Shown here: piece by piece, positions 4,775 to 34,334 of the stretch | Position numbering within the stretch: position 1 is the first letter of the stretch | How the letters are laid out: each line of letters begins with the position of its first letter | Assembly (NCBI GenBank): GCA_902789735.1 | Contig: CADAOZ010000014.1 | Location: forward strand, 1 to 64,000 | Direction of reading: 5' to 3' | DNA length: 64,000 nt | DNA from: an uncultured Lachnospiraceae bacterium | GTDB taxonomy: Bacteria; Bacillota; Clostridia; Lachnospirales; Lachnospiraceae | The notes under the pieces: generated by a model | What the model was told of the DNA's origin: nothing | Databases searched by the model: none | What the model saw: the letters and a program-made list of their open reading frames with translations, nothing else | Made by a program: the position numbers and the translations under genes

Positions 4775-4840
4775 TGAACCGGTAAGTCTGACGCCCGGTC
4801 CATCTTGGAAAATGAACCGGCAAGTCTGACGCCCGGTTCA
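4775..4840. repeat. Paired palindromic repeat, locus 1 (copies 4775-4802 and 4813-4840)
   Basis: Two 28-nt copies spaced 38 nt start to start. The second is a palindrome with arms TGAACCGG and CCGGTTCA around the core CAAGTCTGACGC; the first has a one-base change in the right arm. The same element recurs as pairs at 6107-6173 and 34276-34334. Confidence 0.9.
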
Positions 4841-4852
4841 TAAAATAAAGGA

Positions 4853-4881
4853 TTGTCCGATTTTTCTGAATGCGATACAAT
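4853..4881 (+). promoter_or_regulatory. Promoter of the aminotransferase gene
   Basis: TTGTCC (4853-4858), 17 nt, then TACAAT (4876-4881). The -35 region lies in the second copy of a duplicated ~24-bp segment that also precedes the repeat pair at locus 1. Confidence 0.55.
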
Positions 4882-5023
4882 GTATGTTCGTAATCATGGT
4901 ATGCATAATCCATGAATATGTATTATAGTAAAGCGGAATCCTGTCCATACAAGGCGGCTCCGGCCCTTTTACGGGCCTGGGGTATGGCAGGAAAAAGACT
5001 CATAAGTAAAAAAGGAGACGCAG

Positions 5024-6109
5024 ATGTCCTGGGAAGATAAAGTCAGAAAAGTGGAACCTTACGTGGCCGGCGAGCAGCCCAAAGACAAGGGCGTGATCAA
5101 GCTCAATACCAATGAATGCCCTTATCCGCCCGCGCCCGGCGTTATGACCGCGGCCCAGGTCTTAAGGGACGGCTACAGTGACCTGCGCCTGTATCCCGAT
5201 ATGGACGCGACTATGCTGGTCAATGCCCTGGCGGAATATTATCAGGTGGATCCCGATCAGATTTTTGTCGGCGTCGGCTCGGACGATGTCCTGGCCCTGT
5301 GTTTCCTGACCTTCTTTACGAACGGTACCCCTATTCTGTTCCCTGACATTACCTATTCTTTCTATGAAGTCTGGGCAGACCTGTACGGTATTTCTTATGA
5401 GAATCCTGCCCTTCGGGAAGATTTCTCCATCCGGGCGGAAGATTATCTGCCGGCAGTGACCGGTAAGGAGAACGGCGGCGTGATCATCGCCAATCCCAAC
5501 GCCCCGACCGGCCTGGAGATGGCGCCGGATCAGATTGAGCGGATCGTGGCCGGCAATCCCGACAGCGTTGTCATTATCGATGAAGCCTATGTGGACTTCG
5601 GCGGACAGACAGCCCTGCCCCTGCTTAAAAAGTATGACAACCTGCTGGTAGTCCAGACCTTCTCCAAGTCCAGGGCCATGGCCGGGGAGCGGATCGGTTT
5701 TGCCATCGGTAACAAAAAAATGATCTCCTATCTGAAGGATGTGAAATTCTCCTTCAACTCCTATACCATGAACCTGCCTTCTATCGTGATGGGAACAGAG
5801 TCTGTCAAAGACGCCGGTTATTTCCACGCGACCACGGATAAGATTATTGCCACCCGCGAGCGTTTCAAGAAGGGCCTGCGGGAGCTGGGCTTCGTTTTCC
5901 CGGATTCCCATACCAATTTTGTCTTTGCCGGACATCCGGACTATCCGGCCAAAGACCTCTTTATGGCCCTGCGGGAACGCAGGATCTTTGTCCGCTATTT
6001 CAGCAAGCCCAGGATCTGTGATTATCTGCGGATCACCATCGGCACGGATTACCAGATGGACGCGGTCCTGGCCGCCCTCCGGGAGATCATGGGAGTGGAC
6101 CGGAAATGA
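5024..6109 (+). CDS. hisC: Histidinol-phosphate aminotransferase family protein
   Basis: A class II pyridoxal-phosphate aminotransferase of 361 residues, the normal HisC length. Visible features are the N-terminal LNTNECPYPP, the PLP-binding Asn/Asp/Tyr region (NPNAPTG, then IDEAYVDF) and the Schiff-base lysine in TFSKSRAMAGERIGF. HisC converts imidazole-acetol phosphate and glutamate to histidinol phosphate in histidine synthesis; some relatives act on aromatic amino acids. No other his genes are in the window, so the physiological substrate is inferred from the family. AAAAAGGAG precedes the ATG. The stop codon TGA is itself the first three bases of a palindromic repeat copy. Confidence 0.85.
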   Translation: MSWEDKVRKVEPYVAGEQPKDKGVIKLNTNECPYPPAPGVMTAAQVLRDGYSDLRLYPDMDATMLVNALAEYYQVDPDQIFVGVGSDDVLALCFLTFFTNGTPILFPDITYSFYEVWADLYGISYENPALREDFSIRAEDYLPAVTGKENGGVIIANPNAPTGLEMAPDQIERIVAGNPDSVVIIDEAYVDFGGQTALPLLKKYDNLLVVQTFSKSRAMAGERIGFAIGNKKMISYLKDVKFSFNSYTMNLPSIVMGTESVKDAGYFHATTDKIIATRERFKKGLRELGFVFPDSHTNFVFAGHPDYPAKDLFMALRERRIFVRYFSKPRICDYLRITIGTDYQMDAVLAALREIMGVDRK

Positions 6110-6173
6110 ACCACTAAGTCTGACTACCCGGTTCACAATAGAAATGAACCACTAAGTCTGACTACCCGGTTCA
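6107..6173. repeat. Paired palindromic repeat, locus 2 (copies 6107-6135 and 6145-6173)
   Basis: Two identical 29-nt copies in a 38-nt tandem period, with arms TGAACC and GGTTCA and the family core AAGTCTGAC. The first copy begins with the stop codon of the upstream aminotransferase gene. The copies are more alike within this locus than between loci, suggesting local duplication or conversion. Confidence 0.9.
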
Positions 6174-6203
6174 TAATTACAATAACAGGAGAGATAATAA
6201 TAT

Positions 6204-6704
6204 ATGGAAAGTATTGCAATATGGTTCGCGAATACACTGGGACAGTATATATCGGCAAAAGCAGTCGTGTTCATCGTATCGATGATGCCCATCCTGGAAT
6301 GCAGGGGCGGCCTGCTGGTCGCGTCTCTGCTCAAAGTCGACATCGTGGAAGCGATTCCGCTCGCCGTGATCGGCAATATTCTGCCGCTGCCTTTTATCCT
6401 TCTTTTTATACAGAAAATCTTTGAGTTCCTGAAGAAGTTCAGTGCCACCAGAGGTTTTGTGGAAAAGATGGAACAGCGTGCCATGAACAAATCCGGCGCC
6501 CTGGCCAATGGCGAATTCCTGGGCCTGCTTCTGTTCGTCGGCATCCCTCTGCCGGGAACCGGCGGCTGGACAGGCAGCCTGATTGCTTCTTTCCTGAAAA
6601 TGGATTTCAAGCGGGCCATGCTGGCCGATGTCCTGGGCGTATTCCTGGCCACAGTCATTATGTCCATCGTATCCTACGGGCTGCTGGCCCATCTGGTCTA
6701 TTAA
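6204..6704 (+). CDS. Small multidrug export-like membrane protein (COG2426 type)
   Basis: A 166-residue integral membrane protein resembling the Sm_multidrug_ex (COG2426) family. Four to five hydrophobic segments are visible, with the characteristic MMPILECRGGLLVAS near the N-terminus and GIPLPGTGGWTGSLIAS near the middle, probably re-entrant loops as in the broader DedA-like fold. The transport role in the family name is not well proven, so the substrate is unknown. AGGAGAG precedes the start. It follows a repeat pair and precedes a methyltransferase gene on the same strand. Confidence 0.8.
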   Translation: MESIAIWFANTLGQYISAKAVVFIVSMMPILECRGGLLVASLLKVDIVEAIPLAVIGNILPLPFILLFIQKIFEFLKKFSATRGFVEKMEQRAMNKSGALANGEFLGLLLFVGIPLPGTGGWTGSLIASFLKMDFKRAMLADVLGVFLATVIMSIVSYGLLAHLVY

Positions 6705-6770
6705 CACAGTATTATCAGACACAATATCATTGGAACGGCTTCATGAAGACAGGATCAGGGAGGAACAGCT

Positions 6771-7571
6771 ATGGAAAGCTATACTAATTTCGCGGAAGTT
6801 TATGATACCTTTATGGACCAGACTTCCTATGAAGACTGGGCGGACGATGTCCTTTTGCTGATGACCAGGTTCGGGACGGCCCGCCGCGGCGAGGGAGATA
6901 CGGTCGTGGACCTGGGCTGCGGCACCGGCAAGCTGACTGAGCTGCTGGCAGAGGCAGGCTTCCATATGCTGGGAATCGACCTGTCGCCGGATATGCTCAA
7001 TATCGCCATGGGCAGAAAGCTGGACCAGGGCCACGACACCGTCTATATCTGTCAGGATATCCGGGAACTGGAACTGGCGGAGCCGGTCAGTACCTTTGTC
7101 AGTGTCGGCGACAGCATCAATTATCTGCTTTCGCCGGAGGACCTGGGCCGTATGTTCCGGGGCGTCTGCAGTTACCTGAAGGACGAAGGCATTTTTATTT
7201 TTGACTTCAAGACCCTGCATCTTTACCGGGATGTGATTGGTGACGCTACCATCGCGGAAGACAGGGAGGACTGTTCCTTTATCTGGGACAACTGGTTCCA
7301 TAAGAAAAATAATATCAATGAATACGACCTGACCCTGTTCATCAGGGACCCTTCCGCCGGTGAGAATCTGTTCCGCAAGTTTGAGGAGGTCCACTACCAG
7401 CGGGGCTATACCCTGAAAGAGATCAGGAAGGCGGCGGAGGAAGCAGGCTTTGAATGGGTATTCCAGATGGATTCCGACAGCCGGCAGGAAGTCACTAAGG
7501 ACTCGGAACGGATCATGGCGGTCATCCGCAAAGGACCGGCCCCGGATCCGGAAAGAAATGATGAGGAATAA
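6771..7571 (+). CDS. Class I SAM-dependent methyltransferase
   Basis: A cytosolic methyltransferase of 266 residues. The SAM-binding motif I VVDLGCGTGKLTELL lies near residues 45-60, followed by the acidic motif II region (GIDLSPDMLNIA) and the post-motif stretch VSTFVSVGDSINYLL. The acceptor substrate cannot be read from the sequence. AGGGAGGAACAGCT precedes the ATG. The gene ends 12 nt before dapF, so the two are probably cotranscribed, but a functional link to lysine/peptidoglycan synthesis is only suggested by position. Confidence 0.88.
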   Translation: MESYTNFAEVYDTFMDQTSYEDWADDVLLLMTRFGTARRGEGDTVVDLGCGTGKLTELLAEAGFHMLGIDLSPDMLNIAMGRKLDQGHDTVYICQDIRELELAEPVSTFVSVGDSINYLLSPEDLGRMFRGVCSYLKDEGIFIFDFKTLHLYRDVIGDATIAEDREDCSFIWDNWFHKKNNINEYDLTLFIRDPSAGENLFRKFEEVHYQRGYTLKEIRKAAEEAGFEWVFQMDSDSRQEVTKDSERIMAVIRKGPAPDPERNDEE

Positions 7572-7583
7572 AGAGGAAAAAAG

Positions 7584-8429
7584 ATGAAGCTTGCGTTTAC
7601 CAAAATGGAAGGCTGCGGCAACGATTATGTCTATATCAACGGGTTCACCCAGTCCGTACCGGCAGAGGAGAAGCCGGCCCTGGTCAGAAGGCTCAGCGAC
7701 CGCCATTTCGGCATCGGCGGCGACGGGGTGATCTTTATCAACCCGGCCAAAGAAGCGGATTTTGAAATGGAAATGTGGAACGCGGACGGAACCAGAAGCG
7801 AGATGTGCGGCAACGGGATCCGCTGCGTAGCCAGATATGTCTATGATTTCGGTCTGACCGATCAGAAGGAATTTTCTATCGTCAGCGCGGGCAAGGTCAA
7901 GTATATGACCCTGTATGAGCAGGACGGACAGATCAGCGCGGTCCGTGTCAATATGGGACAGCCCATTCTGGAAGCGGACCAGATTCCGGTACGGGCGGAT
8001 CATTCGCCGGTGATCAATGTCCCGATTGAAGTACAGGGGAAAGAATACCGGATGACCTGTGTCTCCATGGGCAACCCGCATGCGGTCGTTTTCGTGGACA
8101 GTACAGAGGATTTCCCGCTGGAACAGGTGGGGCCGTATTTTGAGAACCACCCCTGCTTCCCCAACCGGACCAACACGGAATTCGTACAGGTCATTGACCG
8201 CGGCCGTGTCCGTATGCGTGTCTGGGAACGGGGGACCGGAGAGACCCTGGCCTGCGGGACCGGCTGCTGCGCAACTGCGGTTGCCTGTGTCCTGAATGGC
8301 CTGACAGACAACGCCATTACAGTGGAAGTGCTTGGAGGCGAGCTGCGGATCGAGTGGGACAGGGAAAATGATCTGGTCTGGATGACCGGTCCTGCCACCG
8401 TTGTATTTTCCGGAGAGATTGAGATCTGA
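7584..8429 (+). CDS. dapF: Diaminopimelate epimerase
   Basis: This enzyme converts LL-diaminopimelate to meso-diaminopimelate, used for lysine and peptidoglycan cross-links. At 281 residues it has normal length. Both catalytic cysteine motifs are present: MCGNGIRCVARY in the N-terminal half and ACGTGCCATAVA in the C-terminal half, with the substrate loop GCGNDYVYIN at the start. AGAGGAAAAAAG lies before the ATG. It is followed after ~230 nt by dapL, whose product LL-diaminopimelate is the substrate of this enzyme. Confidence 0.96.
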   Translation: MKLAFTKMEGCGNDYVYINGFTQSVPAEEKPALVRRLSDRHFGIGGDGVIFINPAKEADFEMEMWNADGTRSEMCGNGIRCVARYVYDFGLTDQKEFSIVSAGKVKYMTLYEQDGQISAVRVNMGQPILEADQIPVRADHSPVINVPIEVQGKEYRMTCVSMGNPHAVVFVDSTEDFPLEQVGPYFENHPCFPNRTNTEFVQVIDRGRVRMRVWERGTGETLACGTGCCATAVACVLNGLTDNAITVEVLGGELRIEWDRENDLVWMTGPATVVFSGEIEI

Positions 8430-8442
8430 TTTTGGGGAACTT

Positions 8443-8494
8443 CAGATCCTGCAGAGGGTATGCTTTTTCAGGTTCTGCAGAAAGCATGCTTTTC
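8443..8494. repeat. Imperfect 26-bp tandem repeat (2 copies) between dapF and dapL
   Basis: The units start CAGATCCTGCAGA and CAGGTTCTGCAGA and each ends in ATGCTTTT; about 20 of 25 positions agree. Each contains the palindrome CTGCAG, so the pair can also fold. No T-tract or protein match makes it an obvious terminator. Confidence 0.6.
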
Positions 8495-8600
8495 AGACGC
8501 GGAAATTCTGTTGGTAGACAGTCTTAAATACACCTTAATATACAGAAAAAATACAGGGAGAATCCTTTCAGGGACAGGAAGGGAAAAGGGAACGGAAGAG

Positions 8601-8620
8601 CCGGAGCATGCCTGCTCCGG
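8601..8620. repeat. Perfect hairpin in the dapL leader
   Basis: CCGGAGCA and TGCTCCGG enclose TGCC, about 40 nt before the dapL start. There is no T-tract after it, so it is a leader stem-loop rather than an intrinsic terminator. Confidence 0.55.
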
Positions 8621-8661
8621 ACAAGACCATCCAAAGAGCATTTTGTAAAGAGGAGGACCAA

Positions 8662-9879
8662 ATGTTTCTTGCAAATCAGGATTACTTGAAACTGCCCGGC
8701 AGCTATCTGTTTTCGACCGTGGCAAAAAAGACAAAGGCTTATACCGACGCCCATCCCGAAGCGGCGATCATCCGCCTGGGCATCGGAGATGTTACCCAGC
8801 CGCTGCCGCCGGCCGTGATCGATGCCCTGCACAGGGCCGTTGATGAGATGAGCAGGGCTGAGACCTTCCGCGGCTATGCCCCGGATCTGGGCTACAGCTT
8901 CCTGCGGGAAGCCATCGCGGAAAATGATTTCGCGGCCAGGGGCTGCCAGGTCAGCGCTGACGAGATCTTCGTTTCCGACGGCGCCAAAGGCGATTCCGCC
9001 AATATCCAGGAGATTTTTGATCATGACAGCAGGATTGCGGTCTGCGACCCGGTCTATCCGGTCTATGTGGATTCCAATGTCATGGCGGGCCGGACCGGGA
9101 CATACGATCCGGCTACAGGCATCTGGTCCAATGTGATCTACATGCCCTGTACCGCGGACAACCATTTCGCGCCGGAGATCCCTTCTGAACAGCCGGACCT
9201 GATCTACCTGTGCTTCCCCAACAATCCGACCGGCGCGACCATCACCCGGGACCAGATGCAGGAGTGGGTGGATTACGCCAACCGGATCGGCGCGGTCATC
9301 CTTTATGACGCCGCGTATGAAGCCTATATCACGGAGGACAACGTCCCGCATTCAATCTATGAGTGCGAAGGCGCCAGGACATGCGCCATTGAGATGCGGT
9401 CCTTCTCCAAGAACGCGGGCTTTACAGGACTCCGTCTGGGCTACGTGGTGATCCCGAAGGAACTGAAGGACAGGAAGGGCCAGGCCCTCCATCCGCTCTG
9501 GGCCAGAAGGCACGGTACCAAATACAACGGCGCCCCTTATATCGTCCAGAGGGCCGGTGAAGCCGTTTATTCGGAAGCAGGCAAAACCCAGGTGCGGGAA
9601 ATGGTCGGAAAATATATGGAGAATGCCCGCTTTATCCTAGACAGCCTCAAAAGCTTCGGCTATGAAGCGTCCGGCGGCGTGAATTCACCTTATGTCTGGC
9701 TGCGGGCCCCCGGCAATATGACCAGCTGGGAATTCTTCGACCATCTGCTGGAAAAGGCCAATGTGGTGGGAACGCCCGGATCCGGCTTCGGTCCCAGCGG
9801 AGAGCATTATTTCCGCCTGACGGCCTTCGGTACCTATGAGAATTCCGTGGAAGCCATGGAAAGGATCAGAAAACTTTAA
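8662..9879 (+). CDS. dapL: LL-diaminopimelate aminotransferase
   Basis: A PLP enzyme that makes LL-diaminopimelate directly from tetrahydrodipicolinate and glutamate, bypassing the succinylase or acetylase steps. The start at 8662 gives 405 residues and is preceded by AGAGGAGGACCAA; a longer in-frame start at 8608 lacks a ribosome site. Features are the DapL-type N-terminus (YLKLPGSYLFSTVAKKT), RLGIGDVTQPLPP, the FPNNPTGATIT loop, DAAYEAYI, and the PLP lysine in RSFSKNAGFTGLRLGY. It follows dapF on the same strand and supplies its substrate. Confidence 0.95.
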   Translation: MFLANQDYLKLPGSYLFSTVAKKTKAYTDAHPEAAIIRLGIGDVTQPLPPAVIDALHRAVDEMSRAETFRGYAPDLGYSFLREAIAENDFAARGCQVSADEIFVSDGAKGDSANIQEIFDHDSRIAVCDPVYPVYVDSNVMAGRTGTYDPATGIWSNVIYMPCTADNHFAPEIPSEQPDLIYLCFPNNPTGATITRDQMQEWVDYANRIGAVILYDAAYEAYITEDNVPHSIYECEGARTCAIEMRSFSKNAGFTGLRLGYVVIPKELKDRKGQALHPLWARRHGTKYNGAPYIVQRAGEAVYSEAGKTQVREMVGKYMENARFILDSLKSFGYEASGGVNSPYVWLRAPGNMTSWEFFDHLLEKANVVGTPGSGFGPSGEHYFRLTAFGTYENSVEAMERIRKL

Positions 9880-9920
9880 CATATCTGAATATCTGACATC
9901 TGGCGGTTTTGTCTGTTCTG

Positions 9921-9929
9921 TGCTATAAT
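9921..9929 (+). promoter_or_regulatory. Extended -10 promoter of the SEC-C protein gene
   Basis: TGCTATAAT matches the extended -10 consensus TGnTATAAT; no good -35 box is visible. The expected start is ~125 nt upstream of the coding start. Confidence 0.5.
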
Positions 9930-10059
9930 CTTGTCTTTGCAGGGACAGTACTGAAAATGCGCAGAAAAACGGGTCCCTGGAATACAGAAAGACAGGACGG
10001 CAGGGGCTGTGACAGCCTCCCGGTCCGAAAGTATAGAAACAGACAAGGAGTTTAAGATT

Positions 10060-10566
10060 ATGGCATTATTAGAGCAGTGGCACGCAAAAGCCTATAATGA
10101 AAAGGAGAACAAGGGAGTCCTGCAGAAACTCTGGCAGGATTATTTCGCCAAAGAAAAAGAGATCTACGCCCAGATCCTGGAGAAGCCGGAAGAAGTCGTG
10201 ACCGGTACCGTCAAAGAACTGGCGGACAAATTCAATGTGGATATCATGACCATGACCGGTTTCCTGGACGGCATCAACGACAGCCTCAAAGAGAAGAACC
10301 CCATCGAGGAAATGGAAGAGGATACCGTCGTCAACCTGGGCTTTGACCTGACCTCCCTTTACAAGAACATGGTCGCGGCCGGCGCGGACTGGCTTTACAA
10401 CCTGCCCCAGTGGGAGCCCATCTTTACGGAAGAGAAGCGTAAGGAACTCTATCTGGAACAGAAGAAGTCCGGTACCGTTGTCAAGGGCCCCAAGATTTAT
10501 CCCAACGATCCCTGCCCCTGCGGAAGCGGCAAGAAATACAAGAAGTGCCACGGCCGGAACAGATAA
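10060..10566 (+). CDS. SEC-C zinc-motif protein of unknown function
   Basis: A 168-residue soluble protein whose last ~20 residues form a SEC-C zinc-binding motif (CPCGSGKKYKKCHG), the same module found at the C-terminus of SecA. The rest is a helical, charged domain (DTVVNLGFDLTSLYKNMVAAGADWLYNL) without a recognised family. The start at 10060 is chosen because AAGGAG lies 9 nt upstream and MALLEQWHAKAYNEKEN is a plausible N-terminus; an in-frame GTG at 10009 is less likely. It has its own promoter and terminator. Function is unknown. Confidence 0.75.
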   Translation: MALLEQWHAKAYNEKENKGVLQKLWQDYFAKEKEIYAQILEKPEEVVTGTVKELADKFNVDIMTMTGFLDGINDSLKEKNPIEEMEEDTVVNLGFDLTSLYKNMVAAGADWLYNLPQWEPIFTEEKRKELYLEQKKSGTVVKGPKIYPNDPCPCGSGKKYKKCHGRNR

Positions 10567-10592
10567 GAAGCCCGAATAATAACGAGACATTA

Positions 10593-10656
10593 AAACAGAC
10601 CTGTATACCGAAGTCCGCCTTACGGCGGAATTCCGGATACAGGTCTGTTTTTTTTA
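10593..10656. terminator. Bidirectional terminator between convergent genes
   Basis: A long stem (ACAGACCTGTAT with ATACAGGTCTGT, inner CCGCC/GGCGG) ends in eight T on the plus strand. It serves the SEC-C gene and, less strongly, the converging J-domain gene, whose stop codon overlaps the T-tract. Confidence 0.88.
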
Positions 10657-11829
10657 CTCACAGCATCCGCCATCTCTTTCATTACTTTGCATGATCCCAA
10701 AGATACATAGAAAGGGCCAGTTAAAGGGGAAACACAATGCGAGAATGATGAGTGCTATAGAGAGGCCGCTGTTTTTCGCTGCAGGCTTTTCAATCTCATA
10801 AAGTACCTGCCGGCTGGTGTACCAGCTACCGGTCTGCAGAATATCGACAAGCTTTGCGTAGGAAGTATTGTCAGGTTCCATTTCGCTGGCTGTTTTGGCG
10901 TATTGCAGGGCAGTAATATTATCCTTCATTCCGTTAGCGGCAAGCGCGCTATAGTAATACCATCTGGCCTCATGGTAACCGGGCATGTTTTTAAGCACAG
11001 CTCTGGCCTTACTATAGTCTTCCTTTTCAATGGATTGCCTTATCTCCGAGTATTGACTGTCACGGAATGGCTGTGCCTGCTGGCAGGTTTCGTCGTCTTC
11101 CAGGCTGTGGGCCAGATTACGGTAATCATCGTTATTGGGATCCATTTGACAGGCAGTCATGGCATACTGCAGGGCATCCCACATTTTTCCCAGACCTTGA
11201 TTGACCAGAGCCATTAGATAATTCCATTCAGCATCATGCTTTTCAATGGTCTCCAGCAGGCGCAAAGCATCACTATATTTACCGTTAAAAATATTAGATA
11301 CAGCTTTTTTATACAAGTCGTCAGACCGGCTGCCCGGGGGATGTTTCCGCTTACCGCATATCTGTTCCAGTTCCATTACCAATCGTTCATATTTCTTATT
11401 GGCAGGATCCATCTGACTGGCATTTCTGGCATAGTGCAGGGCAAGATTCATCTTTCCCAGGCCGTTATAGGCCAGCGCCATATAAACAAACCATCTGGCA
11501 TCCTGCGTCGAAATCATCATGAGGATATGCAGGGCATCGTGATAGGAACGCGCTTTGAGTAAACGGGCAGCATTCTGCATATTGGCTATATTTGGTTCAG
11601 GTCTGCCGGAACGGAAGCTGTCTGCATGCGGATAAGGATGTTCCCGTTCATCCATGATCTGCTCATAGGCGGTCTGGATCATCCGGAACATCCGGTTACT
11701 CTGCTCTTTGTATGGATTGCCCATATTGTTGTCCGGATGATATTTACGGCTCAGCTGCCGGTAGTTCTTTTTGATTTCCTCATCGGATGCGGTTTTGGTC
11801 AATCCCAGTATTGAATAAGGGTCAGACAT
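10654..11829 (-). CDS. J-domain protein with TPR-like repeats and C-terminal membrane segment
   Basis: 391 residues. Residues 2-65 form a J-domain with intact HPD at 31-33, so it should stimulate an Hsp70 ATPase. Residues ~85-330 contain repeated pairs of helices of the TPR type (WFVYMALAYNGLGKMNLALHYARNASQMDP and similar units). A hydrophobic segment near the end (LSIALIILALCFPFNWPFLCIFGIM) could anchor it to the membrane, followed by GGCCE. No dnaK is nearby. It is a paralogue of the next gene upstream (same first residues, MSDPY). A separate promoter and an upstream terminator suggest its own transcript. Confidence 0.82.
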   Translation of the reverse strand: MSDPYSILGLTKTASDEEIKKNYRQLSRKYHPDNNMGNPYKEQSNRMFRMIQTAYEQIMDEREHPYPHADSFRSGRPEPNIANMQNAARLLKARSYHDALHILMMISTQDARWFVYMALAYNGLGKMNLALHYARNASQMDPANKKYERLVMELEQICGKRKHPPGSRSDDLYKKAVSNIFNGKYSDALRLLETIEKHDAEWNYLMALVNQGLGKMWDALQYAMTACQMDPNNDDYRNLAHSLEDDETCQQAQPFRDSQYSEIRQSIEKEDYSKARAVLKNMPGYHEARWYYYSALAANGMKDNITALQYAKTASEMEPDNTSYAKLVDILQTGSWYTSRQVLYEIEKPAAKNSGLSIALIILALCFPFNWPFLCIFGIMQSNERDGGCCE

Positions 11830-12135
11830 GGTAATCTATCCTTTTTTGCAGTGATAACTAAAGATGCGGGCATTCGCGGAACCCCAGATTATAGAATACC
11901 TTTTTTTGAGATATTAAGAAAGACCTTTGTACGAACTCCTGCAGCCCTGAAGCTGTGACGGAGGACCTGTCTGCGTGGAAGCTGTATATGGCCGGCCATT
12001 ATGACCGGATCAGGAAAAGGGGTGCCGCGTTAGATGCGGCACCCCTTTCAGAAGCGTTGTCATATCCGGGACTGTCCTGCACGGCGCAGGTCCCGGAGCG
12101 TACCTTGTATGTGTGTATGGCCGGCGGCGGAACCG
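11830..12135. other. Intergenic region between the two J-domain genes
   Basis: It holds the terminator of the upstream J-domain gene (12012-12048) and a promoter-like pair for the downstream one (minus-strand TTAATA 11917-11912, 18 nt, TATAAT 11893-11888). Nothing else is supported. Confidence 0.6.
12012..12048 (-). terminator. Terminator of the DUF5685/J-domain operon
   Basis: The 13-bp perfect stem AAAGGGGTGCCGC/GCGGCACCCCTTT is followed on the minus strand by TCC after the terminal T run. It stands ~90 nt past the stop of the shorter J-domain gene. Confidence 0.78.
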
Positions 12136-12885
12136 TTACCAGCAGCAGAAACTTCCTCCGCAGAACAAATTGAGGAAGAGGTTGAGCAGGCACATACGGA
12201 TGCACCAGCTCTGCTGATAGGACATGGGCGCCTCATAGGTGGTCTGCCGTGTCTGATACCAGCCGCTGCCGGACTCCAGCCGGCTGAGCAGGTTCCGGTA
12301 GGTGTAATTATCCGGTTCCATCTGGCAGGCTGTCTTCGCGTACTGCAGGGCGTCTACATTCCGGCCCAGACCGATGTTGGCCAGTGCCATATAGTAATTC
12401 CACAGGGCGTCATGCTCCTCGATGTTGTTAAGGACATTCAGAGCCTCATTATAGTGGCGGCTATTGATATAATTGGCAGCGGCCTGCATGCGCATCGTCC
12501 GTTCATCATTGGGACCGCCGGCATTGCCGGGGCGGTTCTGGCCGTAGCCGGCGTTATAAAAGGCGCCGCCAAAGGCCTGGTTGAAGAACTCGGCAAAATC
12601 ATCATAAGTATAAGTGCCGTTCTGGCCGCCATAAGCGCCGCCGTAACCGGTATTGCCGCCGCTGCTGCCATAGCTGCCGGAGGAAGCGTAAGGGTGCTCC
12701 CGTTCGTAGATGATCTGCTCGTAAGCGGCCTGCACCTGTTTGAACATTTCCTCCGCCTGCTCTTTATTGGGGTTGTCAATATTGGCGTCGGGATGATATT
12801 TGCGGCTGAGCTGCCGGTATGCTTTTTTGATCTCCTCTTCGGAGGCGTCCCTGGATACGCCCAGGACTTTATAAGGATCAGACAT
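12136..12885 (-). CDS. J-domain protein with Gly/Tyr-rich linker and TPR-like tail
   Basis: 249 residues from the chosen start at 12885, where [21 protein letters not shown] begins exactly as in its paralogue; the in-frame upstream start at 12948 adds no conserved sequence. The J-domain (2-65) has HPD at 31-33. A flexible Gly/Ser/Tyr/Asn-rich linker (~residues 78-140) follows, then one or two TPR-like units ([33 protein letters not shown]). The C-terminus is hydrophobic and cysteine-rich ([16 protein letters not shown]), possibly a membrane or lipid anchor. The start overlaps the end of the DUF5685 gene by 8 nt, implying coupled translation. The client process is unknown. Confidence 0.82.
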
Positions 12886-13741: not shown

Positions 13742-13743
13742 GA

Positions 13744-26087: not shown

Positions 26088-26105
26088 TACAGGAGGAGCG
26101 TATTT

Positions 26106-27044: not shown

Positions 27045-27082
27045 TACCGTTTACGCGCAGCTAAAAAGGAATATCACGCGGG

Positions 27083-27119
27083 GCCGGCGGCCGGCCGGGG
27101 ATCAGAGCCGGCCGCCGGC
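27083..27119. repeat. 13-bp GC-only stem-loop before asrA
   Basis: GCCGGCGGCCGGC and its exact complement GCCGGCCGCCGGC enclose 11 nt. No T-tract follows. It may stabilise the upstream mRNA or mark a processing point between the molybdoenzyme and asr parts; a second stem (GGGCGCCCG/CGGGCGTCC, 27173-27192) precedes the asrA ribosome site. Confidence 0.6.
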
Positions 27120-27215
27120 ATATCCGCGCAATAAAGAGGGTCCCAAAGACAAAAATGAAATAGAAACATCAGGGCGCCCGTCCGGGCGTCCGAAAGGAAA
27201 GGGGGAAAGTAAAAT

Positions 27216-28235
27216 ATGGGTTATCTGCTGAACCGGGACGGCTTTACGCGTGTGCTCCAGAAGCTTGCCGAAAACCGGCGTCTGTACGCGCCGGTCAATA
27301 AAATCGGTGAGGGACGTTATACGGACGTGGACGTGGTCCGCTATGACTTCATCACGGAAGCCGCCGAAATCGAACTGGAAAAGAAGTCCGATTACGCTTT
27401 TAAGGAAATCCTGACGCCGCTGTCGGAGACGCTGTTCTTCTTTACGGAAAATGAAGTGAAGGAGGCGGATTATGACCAGCGGGAGGTCATCGTCTTCCTG
27501 CGAAGCTGCGACATGCACGCCGTCAAAAGGCTGGACGCCATTTATCTGGAAAACAAATTCGCGGATCCTTTCTATAAGAGGATCCGGGACAGAGTCAGAT
27601 TCGCCCTGATCGGCTGCGGCCATTCCTATGAGGACTGCTTCTGCGCCAGCATGGGCACCAACCGGACCACGGAAGGATATCTGTTCTCTGTCGACCTGAT
27701 CGACGGTCTCTATCACCTGGATGTAAAGGACCCCGATCTGGCACCCCTGTTCGCCGCGGAAGCGGAGAAAGAGCAGGATGTGGAAGCCCGTTATGTGACG
27801 GAAAATGAAGTGAAGGTCACTATCCCCGCGGATGTGCCCAACAGCATCTATAAGGACGGACTCTGGGAAGAGTATACGGCCCGCTGCATCAACTGCGGCC
27901 GCTGCAATTTCGCCTGCCCGACCTGTACCTGCTATACCATGCAGGATGTCTTCTATACGGACAACGGCAAAGTGGGCGAGCGCAGAAGAGTGGGCGCTTC
28001 CTGTATGGTGGACGGTTATACCAATGTGGCCGGCGGCGGTCAGTACCGCAGGACCAACGGGGAGAGGATGCGCTTCAAAGTCCTCCACAAGATCGTCGAC
28101 TTCAGGAAACGCTTCGGGTATGACATGTGCGTGGGCTGCGGCCGCTGCGATATGATCTGCCCGGAATACATTTCCTTCGCCAATATCATCAACAAAGTGA
28201 ACCAGGCTGTGGAAGGAGGTGCGGACAATGCGTAA
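27216..28235 (+). CDS. asrA: Anaerobic sulfite reductase subunit A
   Basis: A 339-residue iron-sulfur subunit of the AsrABC sulfite reductase, which reduces sulfite to sulfide with NADH in the cytoplasm of anaerobes. The two C-terminal 4Fe-4S motifs are CINCGRCNFACPTC and CVGCGRCDMICPEY; the N-terminal half is the 4Fe-4S dicluster-associated domain with RSCDMHAVKRLD. GGAAAGGGGG precedes the ATG. It overlaps asrB by 8 nt. Confidence 0.95.
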   Translation: MGYLLNRDGFTRVLQKLAENRRLYAPVNKIGEGRYTDVDVVRYDFITEAAEIELEKKSDYAFKEILTPLSETLFFFTENEVKEADYDQREVIVFLRSCDMHAVKRLDAIYLENKFADPFYKRIRDRVRFALIGCGHSYEDCFCASMGTNRTTEGYLFSVDLIDGLYHLDVKDPDLAPLFAAEAEKEQDVEARYVTENEVKVTIPADVPNSIYKDGLWEEYTARCINCGRCNFACPTCTCYTMQDVFYTDNGKVGERRRVGASCMVDGYTNVAGGGQYRRTNGERMRFKVLHKIVDFRKRFGYDMCVGCGRCDMICPEYISFANIINKVNQAVEGGADNA

Positions 28236-29028
28236 TGGAAACGGCAACCCGTATGTGCCCTGGCCTTCAGAAATCATGGAGATCATCCGCCATACGGAAA
28301 AGGAATATACCTTCCGCATGCGTTTTACCGGTGAGGTAAAACCCGGACAGTTTTTTGAAGTATCGGTTCCCAAATACGGCGAGGCCCCCATCTCCGTCAG
28401 CGGCATCGGCGAGGACTTTGTGGACCTGACCATCCGGAAAGTCGGCCGCGTGACCGGGGAAGTCTTTGAAAAGGGAGAGGGCAGGACCCTGCTCCTGCGC
28501 GGCCCCTATGGGAACGGTTTTGATACGTCCCTTTACGAGAAAGGGGAAGTCATCGTCATCGCCGGCGGCACAGGCGTATCGCCGGTCCGCGGCGTGATTG
28601 ACGCTCTGGCAAAGACAGAAGCGCCCAAAGATAAGCATGTGATCGTCGGCTTCCGCAGCCCGGCGGACATGCTCTTCCGGGATGACCTGAAACGCTGGGA
28701 TGAGGCCCTGGATCTGATCCTGACTGTGGACGGAGCGCCCGAAGGCTATGAAGGCAATATCGGCCTGGTCACCAAATATATCCCCGAAGTCGAGATCCGG
28801 GATGTGGCCAACGCCAGGGCCGTTGTCGTCGGTCCGCCGCCCATGATGCGTTTCTCCGTGATGGGCCTGCTGCAGAAGGGCTTCCGGGAAGAGAATATCT
28901 GGGTGTCCCAGGAACGTAAAATGTGCTGCGGTCTGGGCAAGTGCGGTCACTGCCGGATCGGAAAGACCTATGTCTGCCTGGACGGCCCCGTGTTCAATTA
29001 TACCGAGAGCAAAGATATGCTGGATTAA
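28228..29028 (+). CDS. asrB: Anaerobic sulfite reductase subunit B
   Basis: A 266-residue flavoprotein of the ferredoxin-NAD(P) reductase type that feeds electrons to AsrA and AsrC. Features are an FAD-binding region near RMRFTGEVKPGQFFEVS, the nucleotide-binding GGTGVSPVRGVI and a C-terminal 2Fe-2S cysteine group CCGLGKCGHCRIGKTYVC. The start at 28228 is taken over the in-frame GTG at 28219 because GGAAGGAGG is then correctly spaced. It overlaps asrA and ends 12 nt before asrC. Confidence 0.95.
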   Translation: MRNGNGNPYVPWPSEIMEIIRHTEKEYTFRMRFTGEVKPGQFFEVSVPKYGEAPISVSGIGEDFVDLTIRKVGRVTGEVFEKGEGRTLLLRGPYGNGFDTSLYEKGEVIVIAGGTGVSPVRGVIDALAKTEAPKDKHVIVGFRSPADMLFRDDLKRWDEALDLILTVDGAPEGYEGNIGLVTKYIPEVEIRDVANARAVVVGPPPMMRFSVMGLLQKGFREENIWVSQERKMCCGLGKCGHCRIGKTYVCLDGPVFNYTESKDMLD

Positions 29029-29040
29029 GGGGTGAGGAAT

Positions 29041-30030
29041 ATGGCAAGAGATATCAATACAAAAAAATTAAAGAAAAATGCGTTCCGTTACTCCAAAGTC
29101 AGAGGTGAGACTGCCAGCCGGATCCGTATTCCCGGCGGCGTGATCAATGCCAAAAGCATGGCGAAGATCGCCGAGGTGGCGGAGCAGTACGGCAACGGGA
29201 CGATCTTTGTGACCAACCGCCAGGGCGTTGAGCTGCCCGGCATCAAACTGGAGGATATGGACGCTGTCAATAAGGCAATCCAGTCCATTATCGATGATTC
29301 CGGCGTCAACCAGGAAGAGCGGGACAAGGGATATCCGGCTTCCGGTACCAGGAACGTGGTAGCCTGTCCGGGCCAGCGTCTGTGCCCCTTCGGCTGCTAC
29401 GATACCACCGCCCTGGCCAGAAAGATGGACAAGATGATCTTCCCCAACCATCTGCATGTCAAGATCGCCTTTACCGGCTGTTCCAATGACTGCGGCAAGG
29501 TCAGGATGGACGACTTCGGCTTCATCGGCATGACGGAACCCCAGTATGATCCCAACCGCTGCGTTGGCTGTGAACAGTGTATCAAATACTGCAATATCCG
29601 GTCGGTCGGCGCCCTCTCTCTGGTCAACGGCAAAGTGGTCCGGGATACACAGAAGTGCATCGGCTGCGGCGTCTGCGTCGCCTACTGCCCGACCAGGGCC
29701 TGGACCAGGAGTAAAGAGCATTATTTCCGTGTCGTCATTATGGGACGTACCGGCAAGAAGAATCCCCGGCTGGCGGAGGATTTCGTCAAGTGGGCTGATG
29801 AAGAGAGCATCTTCAAGATGGTGGAGAACGCCTACGCCTACGTGGAGGAATATATCGATCCCAACGCGCTGGAAGGAAAAGAGCATATCGGTTATATTGT
29901 AGACAGGACCGGATTTGATGAGTTCGTCAAATGGATCATGAAAGACGTCCACCTCAATGACAAAGCCGAAGTGGCCAGCCGTGTATACTGGGGCGGCAAG
30001 CACTATGACAGAAGCAATGACCTGAAATAA
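29041..30030 (+). CDS. asrC: Anaerobic sulfite reductase subunit C (siroheme subunit)
   Basis: The 329-residue catalytic subunit. The nitrite/sulfite reductase siroheme and 4Fe-4S ligands lie in CPGQRLCPFGC and TGCSNDCGKVR, followed by a two-cluster ferredoxin insert (CVGCEQCIKYC and CIGCGVCVAYCP), the arrangement typical of AsrC. The start at 29041 has GGGGTGAGG upstream; a GTG at 29032 is less likely. It reduces sulfite to sulfide and may also accept nitrite, as siroheme enzymes often do. A GC-rich hairpin follows at 30095-30115. Confidence 0.95.
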   Translation: MARDINTKKLKKNAFRYSKVRGETASRIRIPGGVINAKSMAKIAEVAEQYGNGTIFVTNRQGVELPGIKLEDMDAVNKAIQSIIDDSGVNQEERDKGYPASGTRNVVACPGQRLCPFGCYDTTALARKMDKMIFPNHLHVKIAFTGCSNDCGKVRMDDFGFIGMTEPQYDPNRCVGCEQCIKYCNIRSVGALSLVNGKVVRDTQKCIGCGVCVAYCPTRAWTRSKEHYFRVVIMGRTGKKNPRLAEDFVKWADEESIFKMVENAYAYVEEYIDPNALEGKEHIGYIVDRTGFDEFVKWIMKDVHLNDKAEVASRVYWGGKHYDRSNDLK

Positions 30031-30094
30031 TTTTTCTGCCTGCAGGGGCGGGTGCAGCCGGCTGCGGATTTCAATATGTGTATGCCGGAAATGC

Positions 30095-30115
30095 CCCGCC
30101 GCCTGCAGCGGCGGG
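30095..30115 (+). terminator. Possible weak terminator after asrC
   Basis: The stem CCCGCCGC/GCGGCGGG with loop CTGCA is followed by CGCTTTCTG, a poor U-tract. It may reduce rather than stop read-through into the ABC importer genes. Confidence 0.45.
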
Positions 30116-30186
30116 CGCTTTCTGCGGGTAAATTTACACACTTACAAATACGGTAAAAAAGCAGCATATTCTATGACGGGGGAGAT

Positions 30187-31161
30187 ATGAAACTATTAAA
30201 GAAATTCACGGCGGCGGCCGCGATCCTGGTAGTCGCGGCGCTTACCGCCTGCGGAGCACAGACAAATCAGACGCAGGAACAGGCTGCCGCTCCGGCGGAC
30301 CAGGCCGGTCAGGCAGTCACGGAGGAAGCCGGGGCGGACCAGGCTTCTGCAGAAGCGGTGACTTCGGCAGCAGCAGCGGATTCCCTTACGGTGGCCGCTG
30401 TCTCCAGGTCTGTCGGCGACCTCTGGCTCTTATCCGGCGGACAGCTGGCCGGCATGACCGAAGACGGCATGGATCTGGAGGGCATTACAGAGGATACACA
30501 GGTCATCGGAACGGTGACCAATCCCTCGCTGGAAGCGATCGCGGCCCTTTCCCCGGACCTGGTCCTTTTATCCGGCGAGCTGCCGACCCACAAAAAACTG
30601 GCAGGGGACCTGGAATCCCGGAACATTCCCTGCAAGATGATCAGCGTGAATTCCTTTGCGGATTATGACGCGGTCATGCAGGAGCTGACCGCCATGACCG
30701 GGCGGGAAGACTGCTATGCGGCAGCGGTCACGGAGGTCAGGGAGCGGATCGACCAGATTCTGGAGGAGGCTGCGGACCGTGACCTGCGTCAGGGAACCTA
30801 CCTGGCCCTTCGAGTTTCGGCGACCAAGAACAAGGCCCTCAAAAATGATTATTTTGCCTGCGAGATTCTGAATGATTTCGGTCTGGTGAATATCGCCCAG
30901 GACAATGAGGCCCTGGATGAGCTCAATATTGAAGCGATTCTGGACGCGGATCCCGATATGATCTTTGTGATCGAGCAGGGAAAATCCGATGAGGCCCAGG
31001 GCAGCTTCGAGGAGAACTTCTCCGGAAAGCCTGTATGGAAAGAACTGACGGCAGTGAAGGACGACCATGTCTATAACCTGCCCAAAGACTTTTTCCAATA
31101 TAAACCGAACGCGAAATGGGATGAGGCATATCTGTATGTCAGGGAACTTCTGGAAAAATAA
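30187..31161 (+). CDS. FecCD-type ABC importer substrate-binding lipoprotein
   Basis: 324 residues with a lipoprotein signal (LTACG lipobox near residue 22), an Ala/Gln/Glu-rich linker and a BtuF/FhuD-like periplasmic-binding domain with the single long central helix expected of this class. Family ligands include Fe-siderophores, haem, cobalamin and, in MolA-type systems, molybdate or tungstate; the ligand here is not determined. GGGGGAG precedes the start. The permease start lies inside this gene's 3-prime end. Confidence 0.85.
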   Translation: MKLLKKFTAAAAILVVAALTACGAQTNQTQEQAAAPADQAGQAVTEEAGADQASAEAVTSAAAADSLTVAAVSRSVGDLWLLSGGQLAGMTEDGMDLEGITEDTQVIGTVTNPSLEAIAALSPDLVLLSGELPTHKKLAGDLESRNIPCKMISVNSFADYDAVMQELTAMTGREDCYAAAVTEVRERIDQILEEAADRDLRQGTYLALRVSATKNKALKNDYFACEILNDFGLVNIAQDNEALDELNIEAILDADPDMIFVIEQGKSDEAQGSFEENFSGKPVWKELTAVKDDHVYNLPKDFFQYKPNAKWDEAYLYVRELLEK

Positions 31162-32143
31162 CAAAGTCATTATCGCGGGAATCCCTGTGCTGGTGCTGAG
31201 CCTTTCGGCTTCTGTATTCGCCTCCAGCGGCGCCGTCACCGGCGGCCAGCTCTGGCAGACCCTGACCGGCACAGGGGCTTCCTCTTCAACCAAACTTATA
31301 CTGTATCAGATTCGTATGCCGCGGACGGCTGCCTGCCTGCTCTGCGGCAGCGGTCTGTCCGCGGCGGGCCTGCTCCTGCAGGAAGCCCTGTCCAATCCGC
31401 TGGCTTCCCCCGGCATCATGGGCATCAATTCGGGAGCAGGCCTTTTTGTGCTGCTGGCGGGCATTCTGGTCCCTCATATGTATTTTGCCAGGAACGCGGC
31501 AGCCTTTGCCGGCGCCATGCTGTCGGCCCTGCTGGTCTTTTTGATCTCGAGAAAGGCGGGCATGTCCAAATCCGTGATCGTCCTGTCGGGCGTAGCCGTC
31601 TCGACCATGATGACCGCCGGCACCAACGCCATTATCACTTTCCGGCCGGAGAGCGTTACGGACAAAGTAGGCTTTTCCATGGGGAGCCTTGCGGGCATGG
31701 ATCTGGAACAGCTCCCCCTGCCGGCCCTGCTGATCGGTGCCGGCCTGCTGACGGCCCTGTATCTGGCGGATGGAATCGAACTGTTCGCCATCGGGGATGA
31801 GGCGGCCCAGGGAGTAGGCCTTTCGGTGGAGCGCCACCGCAAGCTGACCGTGGCCTGCGCGGCCCTGCTGGCTTCCGCTTCTGTCTGCCTGTGCGGACTG
31901 CTGGGATTTGTGGGACTGATCGTCCCCAACATGCTGCGGATGGCGGACCGGATCTCTGTCCGGAAAAAAATCCTGGGCTGTATCTTATGGGGCAGCAGCC
32001 TGCTGCTGGTCTGCGATACCCTGATGCGGACCCTGTTCTATCCCTATGAGCTGCCGGCGGGCCTTCTGCTGTCTCTGGTCGGAACGCCCTTCTTTATCTA
32101 TGTACTGACACGGCGGGGCGCAAGGGGGAAGCGGCATGATTGA
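31136..32143 (+). CDS. FecCD-family ABC importer permease
   Basis: 335 residues with ~9-10 hydrophobic segments and the conserved family blocks RMPRTAACLLCGSGLSAAGLL, NPLASPGIMGINSGAG and GFVGLIVPNMLR. The start at 31136 is chosen because GATGAGG lies ~9 nt upstream; it makes the gene overlap the binding-protein gene by 26 nt. Longer in-frame starts at 31121 and 31067 lie deeper in the upstream gene. It works as a dimer with the following ATPase. Confidence 0.88.
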   Translation: MSGNFWKNNKVIIAGIPVLVLSLSASVFASSGAVTGGQLWQTLTGTGASSSTKLILYQIRMPRTAACLLCGSGLSAAGLLLQEALSNPLASPGIMGINSGAGLFVLLAGILVPHMYFARNAAAFAGAMLSALLVFLISRKAGMSKSVIVLSGVAVSTMMTAGTNAIITFRPESVTDKVGFSMGSLAGMDLEQLPLPALLIGAGLLTALYLADGIELFAIGDEAAQGVGLSVERHRKLTVACAALLASASVCLCGLLGFVGLIVPNMLRMADRISVRKKILGCILWGSSLLLVCDTLMRTLFYPYELPAGLLLSLVGTPFFIYVLTRRGARGKRHD

Positions 32144-32179
32144 GACAAAGATTTCAGAGCGGCGTAAGGGGGAACCGGT

Positions 32180-32935
32180 ATGATTGAGATAAAAGATTTC
32201 AGCGCGGGATACCGGGGTTCGAAAAAAATACGGATCAGAGAGCTGGACATCCGGCCCGGTCAGATCCTGGGGATCCTGGGCAGGAACGGCAGCGGCAAAT
32301 CGACCTTCCTGCGGGCCCTGGTGGGGATTATTCCCTACGAGGGACATGCCCTGCTGGACGGGACGGAAACAGCCGCCATGTCCCACAAAGACAGGGCCCG
32401 GCGCATCGCCTACCTGCCCCAGCAGCTTTCGCCGGCCCGGATGGATATCCTGACCCTGGCCTCCCACGGACGTTTCGCCAGAATGTCCTTTTCCAAAGTC
32501 ATGGGAGAGGAAGACAAAAAAGCGGTCCGGCGGGCCCTGGAGCGGACCGGGCTCTGGCAGGAGAGATACCGCAGGGTGGATACCCTGTCGGGAGGCGAGC
32601 GCCAGAGGGCCTATCTGGCCATGGTCCTGGCCCAGGATGCGGAGTACATGCTGCTGGACGAACCGGCCGCCGCTCTGGACATAGCCCATCAGATTGAAAC
32701 CATGGATCTGTTAAAGGAATTGGCCTCGGAAGGCAGGGGAATCGTAATCACCTCCCATGACCTGCCCCAGACAGCCGCCTACAGTGACCGGATCTGCCTG
32801 ATTGACCGGGGCAGGGCGGATCCCGCCGCCCCGCCGGATCAGCTGATCCGTGAAGGGAAAAGGATCCGGCAGGTCATGGGCATGACCCTGGTCCCTGCCG
32901 ACAAAGGATTGTATCCTTATATTCTGGAAGCATAG
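32180..32935 (+). CDS. FecE/BtuD-type ABC importer ATPase
   Basis: 251 residues with Walker A GRNGSGKST, signature LSGGERQRAYLAMVLAQ, Walker B YMLLDEPAAALD and H-loop TSHDLPQ. It is the energising subunit for the FecCD permease upstream. Its position at the end of a run of molybdenum- and siroheme-enzyme genes suggests supply of molybdate/tungstate or iron, which cannot be decided from sequence alone. GTAAGGGGGAACCGGT precedes the start. Confidence 0.9.
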   Translation: MIEIKDFSAGYRGSKKIRIRELDIRPGQILGILGRNGSGKSTFLRALVGIIPYEGHALLDGTETAAMSHKDRARRIAYLPQQLSPARMDILTLASHGRFARMSFSKVMGEEDKKAVRRALERTGLWQERYRRVDTLSGGERQRAYLAMVLAQDAEYMLLDEPAAALDIAHQIETMDLLKELASEGRGIVITSHDLPQTAAYSDRICLIDRGRADPAAPPDQLIREGKRIRQVMGMTLVPADKGLYPYILEA

Positions 32936-32979
32936 ATTGCTGAAGAAAAAGAGAAATTCAGATATAAGTGAAGTATGAA

Positions 32980-33015
32980 AAAGGATCCCGCCGGCTGATC
33001 AGCCCGGGATCCTTT
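32980..33015. terminator. Terminator-like hairpin between the ABC operon and azlD
   Basis: AAAGGATCCCG pairs perfectly with CGGGATCCTTT, working in both directions between convergent genes, though U-tracts are short. Confidence 0.65.
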
Positions 33016-33022
33016 GAAATTT

Positions 33023-33064
33023 CCGATATTTATATTATCGATATTTATATTTCTGATATTTGTA
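33023..33064. repeat. 15-bp AT-rich tandem repeat (~2.8 copies)
   Basis: The unit CGATATTTATATT(A/T) with a lead base recurs at 33023, 33038 and 33053, the last degenerating after GATATTTGTA. It lies just past the azlD stop on the minus strand. Confidence 0.7.
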
Positions 33065-33087
33065 CCGGTCATTATAAGTCTGCCCCA

Positions 33088-33393
33088 TCAGAAAATAAAA
33101 CTTGTCACCAGGACCGTCAGGCAGCAGCTGATGGCCACCACGAACAGGTCTCCGTTGAACCAGGCGGCCAGCAGGCCTACGACCAGGGCGGCTGCCCCGC
33201 ACCAGATGCTGCTGCTGGCGTGCAGGATGGCCGGGAAGGTCATCACAGCCAGGGTGACGTAAGGGACATAGAACAGGAAAGATTTCAGCCATTTATTGGT
33301 AATCTCCCTGCGCAGGAAGAGCAGGGGCAGCAGGCGGATCATGTAGATGGTGATGATCATGATCAGCAGGGACTTATAGATTGATGCATTCAT
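33088..33393 (-). CDS. azlD: Branched-chain amino acid export subunit AzlD
   Basis: A 101-residue membrane protein with three to four hydrophobic segments, of the AzlD family that pairs with AzlC to export branched-chain amino acids or analogues. Family-typical features are MIRLLPLLFLRREI near residue 20 and the FLFYVPYVTLAVMTFPAIL segment. Its start overlaps the azlC stop by 4 nt (ATGA). Confidence 0.88.
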   Translation of the reverse strand: MNASIYKSLLIMIITIYMIRLLPLLFLRREITNKWLKSFLFYVPYVTLAVMTFPAILHASSSIWCGAAALVVGLLAAWFNGDLFVVAISCCLTVLVTSFIF

Positions 33394-34118
33394 GTCTTTT
33401 CCTCCTCTACAGGTCTGATCCAGGCGGCTGCGCCGGCAATCACCAGGGTCAGGATAATGACTTTAAAGCCGGACGAGATGGAAGACAGGACCGGCAGGAG
33501 CGAGAAGAGAAAACTGACGGCCATGGACAGGGCGACCAGCAGCCCGATAAAGGAATTCTTTCTGGCAGGGGGGATGATGATGGCCAGGAACATGCCGTAC
33601 AGGGATACGCTCATGGCGTTGGAGGCCCAGTCCGGCAGGATGTTGCCCACCAGGACGCCCAGGGCGGTCCCGCAGGTCCAGCCCGCTACCGATACCAGGG
33701 TGATTCCGTAGGTGTATACAGGGTTCAGATAGCCATCCACCGCGACGGACAGGCCGAAGATCTCATCCGTGACACAGTAAGCGGTCAGGAAACGGTGGAT
33801 AATCGGGATATCGCTTTTGAGTTTCTGGGACAGAGCCGTGCTCATCAGCAGGTAGCGCAGATTGACAATGATGGTCGTGGCGATCATCTCCACAGCGCCG
33901 GCCCCGGAAGCGATCAGGGTCAGGGCCGCGAACTCACCGGCGGAAGCTACCATACCCAGGGACATCAGGAAGGCCTGGAACCAGGTCATGCCCACTTCCC
34001 GGGCGGCAATGCCCAGAGTAAAGGAAACGGCAAAATAGCCCATGCAGATCGGGATTCCGTCCCGCAGGCCTTTGGCGAACCAGGCTCCGCCAGACATGGT
34101 CTTGGAAGTTTCTTTCAT
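33390..34118 (-). CDS. azlC: Branched-chain amino acid exporter AzlC
   Basis: A 242-residue AzlC-family membrane protein with the usual N-terminal block GLRDGIPICMGYFAVSFTLGIAARE and later conserved RYLLMSTALSQKL and FLTAYCVTDEIFGL. Together with AzlD it forms an exporter for branched-chain amino acids. No Lrp/AzlB regulator is adjacent. It is followed directly by azlD and converges with the FecCD importer operon. Confidence 0.9.
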   Translation of the reverse strand: MKETSKTMSGGAWFAKGLRDGIPICMGYFAVSFTLGIAAREVGMTWFQAFLMSLGMVASAGEFAALTLIASGAGAVEMIATTIIVNLRYLLMSTALSQKLKSDIPIIHRFLTAYCVTDEIFGLSVAVDGYLNPVYTYGITLVSVAGWTCGTALGVLVGNILPDWASNAMSVSLYGMFLAIIIPPARKNSFIGLLVALSMAVSFLFSLLPVLSSISSGFKVIILTLVIAGAAAWIRPVEEEKT

Positions 34119-34275
34119 ATTTTATAGCACCTGTTCATTTCAGAATGCCTTCCTTTCCGCCATTCCGACGGGAAGAAAGTGGATTCCGTTTTTTAGCATG
34201 TTTCTGTTTCTGCTGTATTTACAGCGTATATGATTATAACATTAAACACCGGACTTGGTAACTGATTCTTTGCAG

Positions 34276-34334
34276 TGAACCGACAAGTCTGACGCCCCGG
34301 TTCAGTGAACCGGCAAGTCAGACCCTCCGGTTCG
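34276..34334. repeat. Paired palindromic repeat, locus 3 (copies 34276-34304 and 34306-34334)
   Basis: Two 29-nt copies separated by only one base. The first has arms TGAACC and GGTTCA with the family core CAAGTCTGACGC; the second has CAAGTCAGACCC and a changed last base. The period here is 30 nt instead of 38. Confidence 0.88.

Follow-up and report, generated by a model that had tools for sequence, protein, structure and literature searches.

Repetitive extragenic palindromic (REP) sequences and the REP-associated tyrosine transposases (RAYTs, or TnpA-REP) linked to them are the closest described systems for the repeats discussed here, which occur as three tandem pairs in a 64,000-nt stretch (hereafter the window; contig C14, positions 1–64,000) of the genome of an uncultured Lachnospiraceae bacterium (G000; 2.51 Mb, 37 contigs). 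As described in PMC2817692 and PMC6006769, REPs are imperfect intergenic palindromes of 20–40 nt in many copies, and REPtrons combine a RAYT gene with two inverted copies that frame it. The present family shares these properties, the frame being found in a congener (G185), but its hairpins have no GTAG/GTGG tag on their 5' side, its host yielded no RAYT, and its arrays run head to tail. A REPIN (a REP doublet) is made of two REPs in inverted orientation and moves as that unit, whereas here three of the 38 multi-copy arrays contain copies in both directions and a single copy makes the difference from a sister genome at one site (L073). Clusters of few units with short spacers are common to REPINs, to bacterial interspersed mosaic elements (BIMEs; PMC2817692) and to the present arrays; BIME units alternate, however, whereas 35 of the 38 multi-copy arrays are unidirectional. 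An earlier note on this DNA, which had called the window pairs REP/BIME-like, was therefore right as to REP, since the family is dispersed, mostly multiple, intergenic and RAYT-linked in a congener, but not as to the alternating order of BIMEs. A flanking open reading frame (ORF) takes its stop codon from the element's end, as in GTAG REPs (PMC3733652); in those it is the TAG of the GTAG tag, whereas here the first arm provides a TGA, frequently preceded by AAR. Genomes with REPs but without tnpA-REP are already on record (PMC6006769), and a limited collection of literature on REPs and RAYTs in Clostridia and on REPs in Lachnospiraceae held, by title and abstract, no description of the present family. 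The element behaves like REPs but is not a canonical GTAG REP, BIME or REPIN. It is probably an orphan family, REP-like and non-autonomous, that owes its spread to a former RAYT, has no transposase of its own and today changes chiefly by tandem duplication.

The search for further copies proposed in the earlier note showed the repeat to be abundant outside the window. A strict pattern (TGAACC-N3-AAGTCTGAC-N2-6-GGTTCA) occurs at 46 places in G000, and a looser one (TGAACC-N3-7-TCTGA-N3-7-GGTTCA) at 103 places in G000 and 55 in the sister genome RUG578 (G183, also an uncultured Lachnospiraceae); the reversed controls of both gave 0. Scoring with at most two mismatches over 20 fixed bases in 42 own sequences (the window and 41 stretches fetched for exact pattern matches) yielded 120 copies, with 0 in a mononucleotide-shuffled control at the same level. 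The 55 arrays into which these copies fall are a product of that scoring rule, which missed a looser copy beside L181:4717, visible only in alignment: 17 are single, 21 hold two copies, nine hold three, six hold four and two hold five. Pairing, which the earlier note had asked to see tested, extends beyond the window in that more than one copy (two to five) is present in 38 of the 55 arrays. Starts lie 28–40 nt apart in 58 of 64 cases, and successive spacers of at least 3 nt are identical in five of the 17 arrays with three or more copies. The greater likeness within sites first seen in the window also holds, with a mean similarity of 0.919 within arrays (104 pairs) versus 0.864 between them; the within-array value was reached in none of 500 label shuffles of the 120 copies.

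With a length of 27–29 nt, many copies and an extragenic location, the element is a REP in the broad sense (a 20–40-nt palindrome). It has near-constant TGAACC/GGTTCA ends, three to four variable bases, the centre AGTCTGAC and then mostly GCC(C/T); pooled over 120 own and 70 sister copies, the flanking bases are weakly biased towards AAR ahead of it and YTT behind it. The earlier claim of a conserved core between variable arms is accurate for positions 7–11 of the 5' arm, which vary most, but not for the outer TGAACC/GGTTCA, which are nearly constant (in part by construction, as the scan required them within two mismatches over the 20 fixed bases), nor for the 3' half, AGTCTGACGCCYGGTTCA, which is largely constant. 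The distribution is narrow. In a set of 150 family genomes with a single representative for each genus, the strict pattern occurs only in G000 (0 of 149 other genera). Within the genus, three of 62 genomes have the palindrome with GTCNGAC: G000 (99), G183 (45) and G185 (7). A scan of named genomes returned 21 stretches, 15 from RUG578 and six single ones from unrelated bacteria; these looser-pattern places, in Kluyvera, Cytophagales, Bradyrhizobium, Pirellulaceae, Terriglobia and Bryobacterales, were taken as chance. A chromosomal protein-binding site, with TCTGA as the recognition core of a nucleoid protein, gyrase or a regulator, would be consistent with a centre and 3' half that stay constant while positions 7–11 change, and with several neighbouring copies. 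However, this constancy is also explained by recent common descent, only three of 62 congeners carry the repeat, and close sisters differ by gained or lost sites, all of which make such a role highly improbable.

The link to a transposase comes from G185, where an ORF of 252 codons (L148:1390–2148) matches Y1_Tnp (PF01797) at 47.5 bits (cut-off 23) and has NF047646, REP_Tyr_transpos, as its sole NCBIfam match (E 5.6e-20). Its product contains NHIHL, which we take to be the HUH motif. Inverted repeats of 36 nt (929–964 and 2776–2811), each with a TGAACC palindrome bordered by the same short stretches of bases, frame the gene, and half a palindrome lies directly 3' of it. A toxin–antitoxin pair, BrnT (E 3.8e-26) and BrnA (E 4.3e-7), is encoded between the RAYT and the right repeat; RAYT and BrnT/BrnA thus sit jointly between inverted REP copies (L148:929–2811), like a composite element. 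The RAYT that the earlier note had suggested looking for was accordingly found in a congener but not in the genome of the window: PF01797 gave no match in G000 at E ≤0.1, in a search that was positive in eight of 14 control genomes, and none in G183 at E 0.001, while the L148 RAYT as query gave none in either at E ≤10, four in G185 and three in G203. Since both assemblies are incomplete (93.6% for G000, 84% for RUG578), a RAYT gene may have been missed.

The earlier view that such elements are uncommon in Clostridia is wrong for this genus. PF01797 matches occur in 43 of 61 genomes and lie above the cut-off in all five genus proteins tested, and an inverted repeat stands on both sides of the RAYT in 21 of 32 loci scanned, a hand-picked part of the PF01797 matches with mostly longer frames (four of the 21 by 13 nt only, and with no shuffled control). 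Repeat classes, assigned by eye to 23 rows, cluster on the RAYT tree, with five changes where at least 4 are needed and shuffles averaged 10.5 (none of 200 shuffles gave so few). The GGGGACGGTTC and ACCTCTGGGGT classes of palindrome around other RAYTs of the genus resemble the present family in genus, gene family and inverted flanking arrangement, but their sequences differ, and the present family is restricted to three of 62 congeners. The GGGGACGGTTC palindromes flank the RAYTs at L149, L165, L206, L212, L214, L215, L216 and L222, and form another REP class, at two places on the tree.

An ancestor with a RAYT, an HUH single-strand transposase, would have inserted the hairpins one at a time at new sites, with no duplication of the target. 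The gene would then have been lost, leaving the remaining copies as orphans, which may multiply locally by tandem duplication of the hairpin with a short spacer, and decay. Insertions would persist where they do little harm, chiefly on or directly behind stop codons, possibly because the element starts with TGA (with AAR before it in many copies) and so ends the frame near its former end. If this is correct, the family illustrates the fate of a REP after loss of its transposase, in which the inner stems decay but the TCTGA centre is kept, as are the ends, and arrays lengthen head to tail. For Clostridia, it provides a case of one palindrome both with a RAYT (G185, few near-perfect copies) and without (G000 and RUG578, many looser copies).

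Comparison with the sister, whose homologous pieces are mostly 80–97% identical to those of G000 (93–96.5% for window pieces), points to turnover at these arrays. All six window copies, on the plus strand, were confirmed where the earlier note had placed them, with start-to-start distances of 38, 38 and 30 nt. The first pair, in a divergent gap (4775..4802, TGAACCGGTAAGTCTGACGCCCGGTCCA, and 4813..4840, which differs at two of 28 bases), is missing from the sister's site. A 24-nt direct repeat flanks it (4752..4775, overlapping the first T of the pair, and 4842..4865); this sequence is single in the sister, and nothing alike occurs at any other of the 55 arrays. Either an insertion with duplication here or a deletion in the sister would account for the difference. 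The two copies of the second pair (6107..6135 and 6145..6173) are identical over all 29 nt; the latter is common to the sister except for one base, and the sister's first copy is different and inverted, with a longer spacer. Both copies of the third pair (34276..34304 and 34306..34334, the latter TGAACCGGCAAGTCAGACCCTCCGGTTCG), in another divergent gap, are common to the sister. Copy 6 has two mismatches to the fixed bases; its centre has an A (AAGTCAGAC) and its last base is G, which corrects the earlier reading. The statement that copies are always intergenic holds except for the second pair, whose first TGA (6107–6109) is the stop codon of the upstream plus-strand gene, presumably, by its resemblance, a histidinol-phosphate aminotransferase gene. 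A 29-nt pattern with at most three mismatches matched four of the six copies, the first pair being one base shorter and hence outside it, versus 0 matches when the window was dinucleotide-shuffled 100 times. For the 9-mer core by itself, allowing at most one mismatch, the window showed no excess (12 matches versus 9.4 expected).

For 27 of the 55 arrays, the sister site was among loci fetched for bearing the repeat, so this set is biased; 23 of the 27 were aligned (not L057, L176, L180 or L182). Among the other 28, four (L175) were sought and one was reached (15137, repeat also in the sister), 19 were sought and five were not. The 19 comprised five sites with both flanks in the sister, three with one and 11 with none. 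At the five, a less biased sample, the repeat is common to both genomes at three (L052:7155, L177 and L178) and missing from the sister at two (L073 and L071, where the sister has another repeat instead). At L073:3836, a 28-nt single copy plus four bases is present here and nothing in the sister, with no target duplication; the gene ends GGC CTT TGA in the sister versus GGC CTG TGA here, which leaves the protein end unchanged, and this stop-codon site illustrates how such an insertion can spare the protein. Aligned arrays vary between the sisters in copy number, direction and spacers. A three-copy block at L065:5845 is not in the sister while two other copies there are common, and at L181 the sister lacks one copy but has the looser one next to it. 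At L174:4503–4531/L197 and L066:5320–5347/L205, the sister has longer hairpin arms, with bases that match on both sides, as if the palindrome had been lengthened by templated repair.

Alternatively, replication slippage, template switching at hairpins and gene conversion may both multiply and move the copies, with no transposase. Local turnover of this kind is plain from the identical spacers, the array sizes and directions changed between sisters, the 24-nt duplication at the first pair and the two sites with arms extended in step, but alone it does not carry copies to 55 separated arrays. It also fits poorly with the clean single-copy difference at L073, in an array that holds no other copy, and with the frequency of RAYTs with inverted palindromes in the genus; transposase-free spread therefore seems unlikely. 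Target duplication as a general feature was rejected: four of the 55 arrays reach a score of 10 (the 99.7% point of 600 mismatched flank pairs) and two exceed the largest of these (14), the four being two repeat fragments, one terminator-like piece and the 24-nt window case. A miniature inverted-repeat transposable element (MITE) of a DDE transposase was also rejected, as no fixed-length target-site duplication was found.

Several observations weigh against past spread by a RAYT. Across the 120 own and 70 sister copies there is no conserved tetranucleotide 5' of the hairpin and no 5'-GT(A/G)G tag. The RAYT link is one framed gene in one other species, and different repeats accompany the three remaining RAYTs of G185. 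The L148 protein, at 71.7 bits, falls below the curated NF047646 cut-off of 80, the range for five proteins of the genus being 51.8–76.5. The RAYT at L164 (G203) shares the GGGGTCTGACCCC core with L148, but the two are far apart on the tree, and a single clade of RAYTs with a GTCTGAC core was rejected on this ground. Copies differ between sisters, neither of which has a detected RAYT, so the loss would have to be recent or the gene lie in an assembly gap. The 24-nt duplication at the first pair is unlike the products of IS200/IS605 enzymes (PMC2817692). Finally, the direction of change at differing sites, insertion versus deletion, is one that we infer.

Placement relative to genes was assessed with calls from a simple codon-usage script, on which the 48 gene ends and all distances below depend. 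The 53 arrays with two called neighbours lie in 32 tandem, 14 divergent and seven convergent gaps, versus 29.6, 13.7 and 9.6 expected from the base content of array-free intergenic DNA (p 0.64). Copies in tandem gaps number 27 with and 43 against gene direction, and two of the 120 copies lie wholly inside a predicted gene. Array-adjoining gene 3' ends number 48, and 24 of these are inside an array or ≤16 nt from one. The element's first TGA is the stop at nine of the 48 (1.3 expected if uniform; Poisson p 1e-5), and two further ends overlap the array by 17 nt, which corresponds to the element's TCTGA; of 366 stops here, 209 are TGA, more than any other codon. Homologues of five of seven repeat-stopped genes were found among 12 congeners. 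They end on their own stops, ≤6 residues from the same point in 27 of 30 loci and 9, 9 and 15 residues later in the others, so the repeat replaces the natural stop or sits very near it.

These positions could also reflect a single-hairpin element that is still mobile without a RAYT, through a trans-acting enzyme, and settles on stop codons. Since the element end reads (AAR)TGA, a stop could be replaced in place with the protein unchanged, and such mobility would offer a repeat a route into packed bacterial genomes; we consider it distinctly unlikely. Another possibility is selection behind stop codons for an RNA hairpin at the 3' end, with a role in terminating or slowing translation or in protecting mRNA, as the 24 gene ends in or near arrays, with nine on the first TGA and two on TCTGA, might suggest. 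E. coli REPs ≤15 nt from a stop affect translation (PMC12306157). However, the number of arrays in divergent gaps matches the base-content prediction, the strand is not fixed, and some arrays are followed by separate terminators. Predicted stems are weak as DNA, at −3.5 to −7 kcal/mol for five different window copies (two G185 copies reach −11.2 and −13.2). Inner stem positions 7–11 pair no better than shuffled partners among 119 own and 70 sister distinct rows, and compensatory base changes are thus not supported. The T run expected of an intrinsic terminator does not appear in the pooled flank profile, and divergent gaps are not avoided. A terminator or 3'-end function is accordingly not favoured, on context counts and strand, and appears very unlikely even with the crowding at stops in its favour. 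Rfam 15, searched over window positions 4000–7000 (the first two pairs), gave five weak matches, none at gathering score and none on the repeats.

Other short repeats accompany the family. Beside the third pair, the window holds a 31-nt inverted repeat (GGGCTGAGAGACAGGGGGC..., 34348–34471) with a 32-nt tandem copy of one arm, and a similar hairpin, ACAGGGGGC/GCCCCCTGT, lies next to a copy at L174 and also at L197 of the sister. The short repeat CTCTGAGGTC resembles palindromes around class-B RAYTs of the genus, here again without a RAYT. Together with GAGCTCAGAGCTC, and in some cases in tandem, it occurs at L056, L058, L072, L073, L074, L175 and L183, and in the sister at L075, L079, L080, L087, L204 and L262.

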